A stretch of 64,000 nt of DNA from Thioalkalivibrio sulfidiphilus HL-EbGr7 (GTDB lineage: Bacteria > Pseudomonadota > Gammaproteobacteria > Ectothiorhodospirales > Ectothiorhodospiraceae), in assembly GCF_000021985.1 (NCBI RefSeq), contig NC_011901.1, positions 744,001-808,000 of the forward strand, given 5' to 3'. Both the position numbers and the translations under genes were made by a program. Position 1 is the stretch's first letter; every line of letters starts with the position of its first letter. The notes under the pieces were generated by a model, which was given only the letters and a program-made list of their open reading frames with translations, did not search any database and was not told the origin of the DNA. Shown here in pieces: positions 24,386-56,703 of this stretch.

Positions 24386-24390
24386 GGGGT

Positions 24391-52085: not shown

Positions 52086-53441
<1,356 letters not shown>

Positions 53442-53456
53442 ACAGACAGAGACATC

Positions 53457-54107
53457 ATGAGCAACGAGACCCTCACCATCGCCTTGTCGAAAGGACGCAT
53501 CTACAAGGACACCCTGCCGCTGCTGGCCGCCGCCGGCATTACGCCGGTGGACGACCCCGAGACCAGTCGCAAGCTGATCCTCGACACCAACCAGCCGGAT
53601 GTGAAGCTGGTGGTGATCCGTGCCTCCGATGTGCCCACCTACGTACAGTACGGCGCGGCGGATCTGGGGGTCTCCGGCAAGGACGTGCTCATGGAGCACG
53701 GCGGCGAAGGCATCTACGAGCCCCTGGACCTGCGCATCGCCCGCTGCAAGCTCATGGTGGCCGGTCGCCCCGGCGCCACCGAGACGCCAGGTCGCTTGCG
53801 CGTGGCCACCAAGTTTGTTAATACCACCAGACACTACTATGCCGGGAAGGGCCGGCAGGTTGAGATCATCAAGCTCTACGGCTCCATGGAGTTGGCGCCT
53901 ATTGTGGGACTGGCCGACTGCATCGTGGATCTGGTGGATACCGGAAACACCCTGCGTGCCAACGGCCTCGTGCCCCTGGAACACATCGCCGACATCAGCT
54001 CCCGGCTGGTGGTTAACAAGGCGTCCATGAAGATGAAATCGGCCCGCATGAAGGCCCTGATCCAGCATCTCGGCGAGGCGGTCGATCGAGCCGCCTCCGC
54101 CACCTGA
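53457..54107 (+). CDS. hisG: ATP phosphoribosyltransferase, short form (216 aa)
   Basis: First step of histidine synthesis. It is the short (HisGS) form without the C-terminal regulatory domain: [67 protein letters not shown] (in parts). The short form needs the HisZ subunit, which is not in this window and must be elsewhere. It is in the murA-hisG order common in this class. A ribosome site is weak. Confidence 0.94.
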
Positions 54108-54129
54108 CCCATTGCAGGAAGATCCAGCC

Positions 54130-55189
54130 ATGCGCTACCACACAGATGACCTGCGAATCCTCGAGATCCGCGAGGTTTCGCCCCCCCGTCCTCGTTCACG
54201 AGGAGTTGCCTGTCACCGACGAGGCAGCCGCCACCGTGCACAACGCCCGGGAGGCCATTCACAACATCCTCGCCGGAGAGGACGATCGGCTGCTGGTGAT
54301 CGCCGGCCCTTGTTCCATCCATGACGTGGATGCGGCCATGGAATACGCAGGCCGGCTCAAGACCATGCGCGAGAAGCTGGCCGACGACCTGCATATCGTG
54401 ATGCGCGTGTATTTCGAAAAGCCCCGTACCACCGTGGGCTGGAAGGGTCTGATCAACGACCCCAACCTGGATGGCAGTTTCCAGATCAACAAGGGGCTGC
54501 GCCTGGCCCGGGGTCTGCTGCTGGAACTGGCCAACATGGGCATGCCCTCGGCCACGGAGTACCTGGATCTGATCAGTCCCCAGTACGTCGCCGACCTGGT
54601 GGCCTGGGGTGCCATCGGCGCACGTACCACGGAAAGCCAGGTGCATCGTGAGCTGGCCTCGGGGCTGTCCTGTCCGGTGGGTTTCAAGAACAGTACCGAC
54701 GGCAGCCTGCAGGTGGCCATCGATGCCATTGGCTCCGCGTCGCGTCCCCATCACTTCCTGTCCGTGACCAAGGCGGGGCATTCGGCCATCTTTTCCACCG
54801 CGGGCAACAACGACTGCCATATCATCCTGCGCGGCGGGCGCGAGCCCAACTATGACGCCAGGAGCGTGAATCACGCCGCCGAGCAGTTGAAGGCCGCCGG
54901 CCTGCCGCCCAAGCTGATGGTCGACTGCAGCCACGCCAACAGCCGCAAGGATCCGAGTCGTCAGGTGGAGGTGGCCCGCGTGCTGGGCGAGCAGTTGGCC
55001 GCCGGAGACCGGCGCATCATGGGGGTGATGCTGGAAAGCCACCTGGTGGGTGGCCGCCAGGACGCCGAGGACGGCCGCGAACTGACCTACGGCCAGAGCA
55101 TCACCGACGCCTGCATGGGCTGGGACGACAGCGAGCAGGTGCTGGAAGGCCTGGCCGCCGCGGTGCGTGCGCGACGCGCCGCAAACTGA
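54130..55189 (+). CDS. aroG: 3-deoxy-7-phosphoheptulonate synthase, AroG type, with apparent frameshift
   Basis: Makes DAHP, the entry to aromatic amino acid synthesis. From about 54188 the frame reads as a complete AroG-type enzyme (IAGPCSIHD, VMRVYFEKPRTTVGWKGLIND, GAIGARTTESQVHRELASGLSCPVGFKN, given in parts). The proper start, ATG at 54130 behind AGGAAG, encodes MRYHTDDLRILEIREVSPP, the family N-terminus, but in a different frame. The two join if the 7-C run at 54181-54187 had six C. The result would be 352 residues, against 350 in E. coli. As written, the core can only be read from an ATG at 54146 without a ribosome site. It lies between hisG and hisD. Confidence 0.85.
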
Positions 55190-55192
55190 ATG

Positions 55193-55376
55193 ATGATTCT
55201 TGCCACAGAGGTCACAGAGACAAACACCAAACGCTTTTCCTTGGCGTCTTAGCGTCCTGACGAGAGACTGGGGTTTTCGGCCCGCGGATAGACCGGTCTC
55301 CCGCCAGGACCCCAGGCGCGAAGAAAGCATCTGATTTCTCTCTGTGACCTCTGTGTCCTCTGTGGCATAAATGCAT
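55193..55376. repeat. Palindrome of CACAGAG-type units
   Basis: Outer arms at 55193-55220 (GCCACAGAGGTCACAGAGA) and 55337-55376 (TCTCTGTGACCTCTGTGTCC then TGTGGCATAAATGCAT) pair over most of their length. The centre holds GGTTTTCGGCCCGCGG and CCAGGACCCC stretches. It fills the 215-bp gap between aroG and hisD. No gene is seen. Confidence 0.75.
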
Positions 55377-55404
55377 TGACACCCAAGACCCTGACAGAGC
55401 CGCC

Positions 55405-56703
55405 ATGCCCGCCATCAATCGCCTGAGCACCTCTGACGCCGATTTCCGCCAGCGCCTCGATGAGCTGCTGGCCTGGGAGAGCGTCTCCGACGACGCCGTG
55501 TTCACCACGGTGCGCGACATCCTGGCCGACGTGCGTCGCCGTGGCGATGCCGCCGTTCTCGAGTACACCCGCCGCTTCGACCGCCGCGAGGTGACCGAGG
55601 CCGCTGATCTCGAGATCCCGCTGTTCCGCCTGGAACAGGCCTTGACCGCCATCCCGGCGGAACAGCGCAAGGCCCTGGAGACCGCCGCCGCGCGCATCCG
55701 CCGCTATGCGGAGCGCCAGAAGATGGACTCCTGGCAGTACACCGAGGAAGACGGCACCATGCTGGGCCAGCAGGTGACCCCACTGGATCGCGCCGGACTG
55801 TACGTACCGGGCGGCAAGGCCGCCTATCCCTCCTCGGTGCTCATGAACGCCATCCCGGCCAAGGTGGCCGGGGTTGAAGAACTCATCATGGTGGTGCCCA
55901 CGCCCGGCGGCGAGGTGAACGAGCTGGTGCTCGCCGCCGCCGCGGTCGCGGGCGTGGACCGGGTGTTTGCCGTGGGCGGCGCCCAGGCGGTGGCAGCGCT
56001 GGCCTACGGCACCGAGACCATCCCCGCGGTGGACAAGATCGTCGGCCCGGGCAACATCTACGTGGCCACCGCCAAGCGCATGGTCTACGGCACCGTGGGC
56101 ATCGACATGATCGCCGGCCCGTCCGAGATCCTGGTGGTCTGCGACGGCAGGACCGACCCCGACTGGATCGCCGTGGACCTGTTCTCCCAGGCGGAACACG
56201 ACGAGGACGCCCAGTCCATCCTGGTCTCGCCGGACGTGCAGTTCCTGGATCGCGTCGAGGAGAGCATGGAGCGCCTCATGGCCGAGATGCCCCGGGCACA
56301 GATCATCCGGACCTCGCTTGAGGGCCGGGGCGCCCTGATCCAGGTGAGGGACATGGACGAGGCGGTGGAGGTGGCCAACCACATCGCCCCTGAACACCTG
56401 GAGCTGTCCGTGGAGGACCCCGAGGCCGTGGCCGCGCGCATCCGCCACGCCGGCGCCATCTTCATGGGCCGCTACACCGCCGAGGCCCTGGGTGACTACT
56501 GCGCCGGGCCCAACCACGTGCTGCCCACCTCGCGCACGGCGCGTTTCTCCTCGCCCCTCGGCGTGTACGACTTCCAGAAGCGCTCCAGCCTGATCCACTG
56601 CTCGGCACAGGGCGCCTCCACCCTGGGGCGCACCGCCTCGACGCTCGCCCGGGGTGAGGGCCTGGTGGCCCACGCCCGTTCGGCGGAATACCGCATCAAG
56701 TGA
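55405..56703 (+). CDS. hisD: Histidinol dehydrogenase (432 aa)
   Basis: Final two oxidations of histidine synthesis, zinc- and NAD-dependent. Recognisable blocks: [24 protein letters not shown] (in parts), [45 protein letters not shown] and [10 protein letters not shown] with the expected Glu/His of the active site. Full length. It is separated from aroG by a palindrome and from hisC by 10 bp. Confidence 0.95.

Follow-up and report, generated by a model that had tools for sequence, protein, structure and literature searches.

A likely homopolymer overcall interrupts aroG, the only DAHP synthase gene found in Thioalkalivibrio sulfidiphilus HL-EbGr7

Introduction

In the deposited genome of Thioalkalivibrio sulfidiphilus HL-EbGr7, a single contig of 3,464,554 bp, the DAHP synthase gene aroG starts in one reading frame and continues in another, the change falling at a run of seven C. 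Is this interruption a property of the organism, or of its deposited sequence? A preliminary description of the locus had placed three options side by side: a sequencing error, a true inactivating mutation and a slippery run allowing low-level or switchable expression. In the window analyzed here, that is, the whole 64,000-nucleotide stretch at positions 744001-808000 of the contig, the first of these is best supported, plain inactivation is disfavored and a switchable run has no comparative support.

Results

Layout of the locus

The preliminary description had read the AroG N-terminus from the ATG at 54130, and 17 in-frame codons were indeed found there, with AGGAAGA just upstream (table 1). 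Frame 0 reads MRYHTDDLRILEIREVSPP from this ATG and then unrelated residues up to the stop at 54322-54324. The remainder of the enzyme lies one base out of frame, as had been claimed, its frame being uninterrupted from the ATG at 54146 through the stop ending at 55189 (an ORF of 347 residues). The change falls exactly at CCCCCCC, whose coordinates were confirmed in the sequence, and codon statistics are in line with it, with frame 0 preferred over the first 51 nt (starting at 54130) and the next frame taking over at about 54175. Such a split is not a product of chance: in each of the four same-genus relatives, these N-terminal residues lead into the enzyme without a change of frame.

Table 1. 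Features of the aroG locus (positions in the window)
Feature	Position	Strand	Basis
hisG (ATP phosphoribosyltransferase), upstream neighbor	53457..54107	+	NCBIfam TIGR00070, 189 bits, cut-off 75.75
AGGAAGA, Shine-Dalgarno-like, before ATG 54130	54116..54122	+	sequence read directly
aroG head, 17 codons, frame 0, MRYHTDDLRILEIREVS	54130..54180	+	translation; selection counts vs L004-L007
ATG, first start codon in AroG frame; possible internal start	54146..54148	+	sequence, ORF list
CCCCCCC, frame-change point; six C in four same-genus relatives	54181..54187	+	sequence, relatives
aroG tail, 333 codons plus stop, next frame	54188..55189	+	ORF, family match, relatives, selection
TGA closing frame 0, 64 codons in	54322..54324	+	translation
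hisD-like gene, downstream neighbor	55405..56703	+	ORF; collinear in L004, L006, L007 (tblastn)

The order hisG-aroG-hisD-like (53457-56703) is common to the same-genus loci L004, L006 and L007; the last of the three genes, at 55405..56703, is presumably hisD-like. The gap between aroG and this gene (55200-55370) contains CCACAGAGGTCACAGAGA / TCTCTGTGACCTCTGTG-type sequences as an inverted pair, which looks like a dispersed intergenic repeat, and similar repeats, TGTGACCTCTGTG, adjoin aroG in L006 and L007. A promoter search of 53350-55500 returned no candidates, and the same interval contains two terminator-like sites, both on the minus strand, where 1.2 would be expected. A plasmid origin of the region was discarded after no match was obtained in a plasmid collection.

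Identity of the enzyme

The ORF in the AroG frame scored 528.4 bits against the NCBIfam model for DAHP synthase (TIGR00034, cut-off 173.2). Against the AroG equivalog NF006723 it scored 567.1 bits (566.5 in the whole-genome search), slightly below the cut-off of 568, and the N-terminus was not intact, the first 15 model positions being unmatched because of the frame change. The cut-off is a strict one, since only one of 14 control genomes reaches it. The ORF that starts at 54146 aligns over its residues 11-344 with the chains of PDB 1gg1 and 5cks (E value 5.8e-144 or better), structures of E. coli AroG, a type I alpha DAHP synthase. The HL-EbGr7 head has the TDDLRI extension found in the same-genus relatives. 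A difference is that in the deposited sequence head and tail occupy different frames.

The run in relatives

Matches were found in 51 of 58 genomes searched, HL-EbGr7 included, and the head of the gene was inspected in the 29 other genomes with returned loci, a set separate from 21 further matching genomes. All 29 have a single open frame through the site and encode proteins of 351-355 aa. The preliminary description had calculated that six C would restore a 352-residue enzyme of normal length, and both the arithmetic and the normality of that length hold. It had also suggested comparing related strains, and the four loci from the same genus (L004-L007) all read TCG CCC CCC GTN, with six C and an intact gene. 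A more distant relative (L023) has a seven-C run in a different phase, TCC CCC CCG, and in frame. On this comparison the frame change is private to the HL-EbGr7 assembly among the relatives inspected. In a scan of GTDB r220 contigs, the best of the 80 loci kept had 71% identity, a figure from which very near records were possibly left out.

Directly after the run, hairpins are predicted at 54188-54260 (-32.2 kcal/mol over 73 nt, z = -3.06, equaled by one of 200 shuffles). Hairpins beside homopolymers can disturb sequencing. The hairpin seen here begins 1 nt past the run, a spacing too close for the usual frameshift stimulator, and as a conserved recoding signal it was rejected: its six-pair stem recurs within the first 25 nt only in L007, one of eight relatives folded. 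No conserved recoding signal was found at the run.

Selection on the two pieces

The tail differs from that of L004 by 78.7 synonymous and 19.3 nonsynonymous changes (dN/dS 0.063), and its dN/dS against L005-L007 is 0.115-0.120. These values show none of the relaxed selection of a pseudogene, although a very recent loss would leave no trace in them. The 17 codons of the head, read in frame 0, differ from L004 by four synonymous and no nonsynonymous substitutions and from L005-L007 by three to four synonymous and one nonsynonymous. Such counts indicate that selection has acted on head and tail as protein, each in its own frame, up to the present or the very recent past. Between the tails of HL-EbGr7 and L004 there are 15 amino-acid differences, seven of them private to the HL-EbGr7 lineage and three to L004, a small nominal excess.

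Must the gene work?

A search of the genome with the PF00793 profile matched two places, aroG and KdsA, the latter next to what is presumably a CTP-synthase-like gene; a second DAHP synthase was thus rejected. No match in the genome was obtained for the type II DAHP synthase (PF01474) or for the archaeal-type DHQ synthase (PF01959), so no bypass was found, and the chorismate synthase gene is present with its frame open. In the available text of the genome paper, HL-EbGr7 is called obligately chemolithoautotrophic, the DNA for sequencing was taken from a thiosulfate culture in carbonate buffer, and the isolate, once it had adapted for a long time to a mixed-substrate medium, could grow on thiosulfate alone; the words "yeast," "vitamin" and "mineral" do not occur in that text (PMC3072093). 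Because no other DAHP synthase was found in this obligate autotroph, and because both pieces of aroG are under purifying selection, the gene is very probably functional in HL-EbGr7.

Search for other frame breaks

In the 3.46 Mb of the genome there are 124 homopolymers of C or G with a length of exactly seven (57 forward, 67 reverse). One hundred distinct runs, those on the reverse strand reaching only to about 2.09 Mb, were scored by codon statistics, with thresholds that were set after the first results were known. The first codon model left all 100 uncertain (none same, none different), and the second, with 210-nt flanks, assigned 27 to the same frame and two to different frames, with 71 uncertain. 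The third, with variable flanks, gave 39 runs with the same frame on both sides, three same-strand changes of frame and two cases of opposite strands, while 30 runs, that of aroG included, were readable on one side and 26 on neither. The three same-strand changes appear to be gene junctions rather than true breaks, presumably murF/mraY, uvrB/L,D-transpeptidase and coaX/SPOR (named from the translations).

The window was also checked for split genes against two same-genus genomes, G004 (15,568 window bases covered) and G002 (39,725 covered). Of the 16 rows obtained, five map to the aroG run or its immediate vicinity, which shows that the check can detect the site. Another two lie in what is presumably a petC-sspA-like gap; the rows near 24390 and 35015 proved to be gene junctions on alignment, and the remaining seven were assigned to gene junctions from their coordinates alone. 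Neither the 100 runs scored nor the comparison of the window with G004 and G002 established a second frame break. The idea that errors of this kind are common in the HL-EbGr7 genome is not supported, which counts against reading the extra C as an error.

Discussion

We consider it likely that the seventh C is a mistake of the deposited sequence, in which a run of six was called as seven, and not a genetic switch. The true aroG would then be an ordinary, uninterrupted gene whose translation from 54130 yields a type I DAHP synthase of some 352 residues, and either the reads or the consensus would be wrong at the C run. We prefer an overcall because the same-genus relatives have six C, the gene is under purifying selection and encodes the sole DAHP synthase found, the organism is an autotroph and 454 reads went into the assembly. 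The change has the marks of a homopolymer error: it is a single-base change in a homopolymer, unique among the relatives inspected, in a gene expected to work. According to the genome paper, as far as its text is available, the assembly combines 8.19x Sanger with 23.3x 454 coverage, with a stated error of <1 per 50 kb in a table and <1 in 100,000 in the text (PMC3072093), rates that would allow up to about 35-69 errors over the 3.46 Mb. The accessible part of a study of Acinetobacter baumannii describes wrong homopolymer lengths as typical of 454 genomes, and in that study, as here, single-base changes in short homopolymers split conserved genes in 454 data; there, however, hundreds of sites were affected, mainly A/T runs, whereas HL-EbGr7 has a C run in a hybrid assembly with 8x Sanger (PMC6861863). 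A similar false frameshift described for Clostridium autoethanogenum arose from PacBio under-calling, that is, on another platform and in the opposite direction (PMC4687164, available part). Against an error stand the finished status given to the genome, the 8x Sanger coverage and a round of manual curation (PMC3072093, available text), and the medium may have supplied traces of organic compounds. Even so, in the sole and needed gene of an autotroph, a single wrong call seems likelier than a genuine frameshift.

If the insertion were real and recent, enough full enzyme might still be made through a ribosomal +1 shift on CCC CCC C-GU, or through loss of a C by RNA polymerase, an explanation that we regard as unlikely. 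A +1 shift on CCC CCC C GTC does restore the native ...SPPVLVH..., CCC-CGU is a known slippery sequence, and tRNA-Pro genes with GGG, UGG and CGG are all present in the genome. CCC-CGU after AUG is the very context of the mRNA used to study +1 shifts of tRNA-Pro, for which the available text reports rates of up to 1% in E. coli when CCC-C stands at codon two (PMC4519876), and the product after the shift would likewise be Pro-Val. A review, seen in part, describes corrective and "savior" frameshifting, runs of seven G included (PMC5009743), and the transcriptional frameshifting of Citrobacter rodentium tssM, likened here by description only, is a case in which a gene is interrupted and yet yields its product (PMC4256274, available part). 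On the other hand, the second codon is the most shift-prone position and the aroG run lies at codons 18-20, away from the start codon, where neither conservation nor a programmed signal was found; general nonprogrammed +1 shifts stay below 0.003%, m1G37 and EF-P suppress the shift, and the native UGG tRNA shifted mostly by +2 instead of +1 (PMC4519876, available text). As to RNA polymerase, the accessible part of the source names A/T tracts as prone to slippage and gives insertions by the host enzyme as threefold more frequent than deletions (PMC6260861), but the aroG run is made of C and requires a deletion. None of the 29 relatives inspected needs a shift, so the conserved interruption of a programmed +1 gene is lacking. 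No paper was found on Thioalkalivibrio with "DAHP synthase"; for T. sulfidiphilus with "frameshift" only a CRISPR review, judged by its title, was returned, and no title among the matches listed was that of an HL-EbGr7 proteome study.

A real insertion could also be circumvented by starting at the ATG at 54146, which would give 347 residues with a complete barrel and ten foreign residues in front, perhaps no longer inhibited by Phe. We hold this to be very unlikely. The ORF 54146-55189 is open and has its ATG, and its alignment to the best solved DAHP synthases starts only at residue 11. In the Neisseria enzyme, the N-terminal extension contributes to the Phe site, and no electron density was seen for residues 1-14, according to the available text of its description (PMC4735112), so the barrel may tolerate loss of the extension. 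However, no Shine-Dalgarno sequence was seen before 54146, whereas 54130 has one, and the purely synonymous differences from L004 in frame 0 indicate that this frame was selected as protein until recently.

Least credible of all, and hardly to be expected, is a real insertion that left aroG dead, leaving the clone that was sequenced, or a fraction of the culture, unable to make its own DAHP; homopolymer frameshifts are a common type of spontaneous mutation, but no other DAHP synthase was found in this obligate autotroph and the tail of aroG is under purifying selection. The long adaptation on a mixed-substrate medium speaks for such a loss, as do the 36 pseudogenes counted in the genome, which the available text does not tie to aroG (PMC3072093).

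What the locus means depends on the number of C. Were seven C real, the sole known entry to the aromatic amino acids could be fed by +1 slippage on CCC-CGU, a leaky frameshift within an essential biosynthetic gene that would tie aromatic supply to the state of tRNA-Pro (m1G37, EF-P), a prospect that we think improbable, and the gene would be a natural test of the amount of +1 slippage at CCC-CGU on which a cell can live. If instead the seventh C is an error, as we believe likely, the matter is one of annotation only: aroG risks a pseudogene label or a false start in a reference genome, and metabolic models may show a false gap at the entry enzyme of the shikimate pathway.
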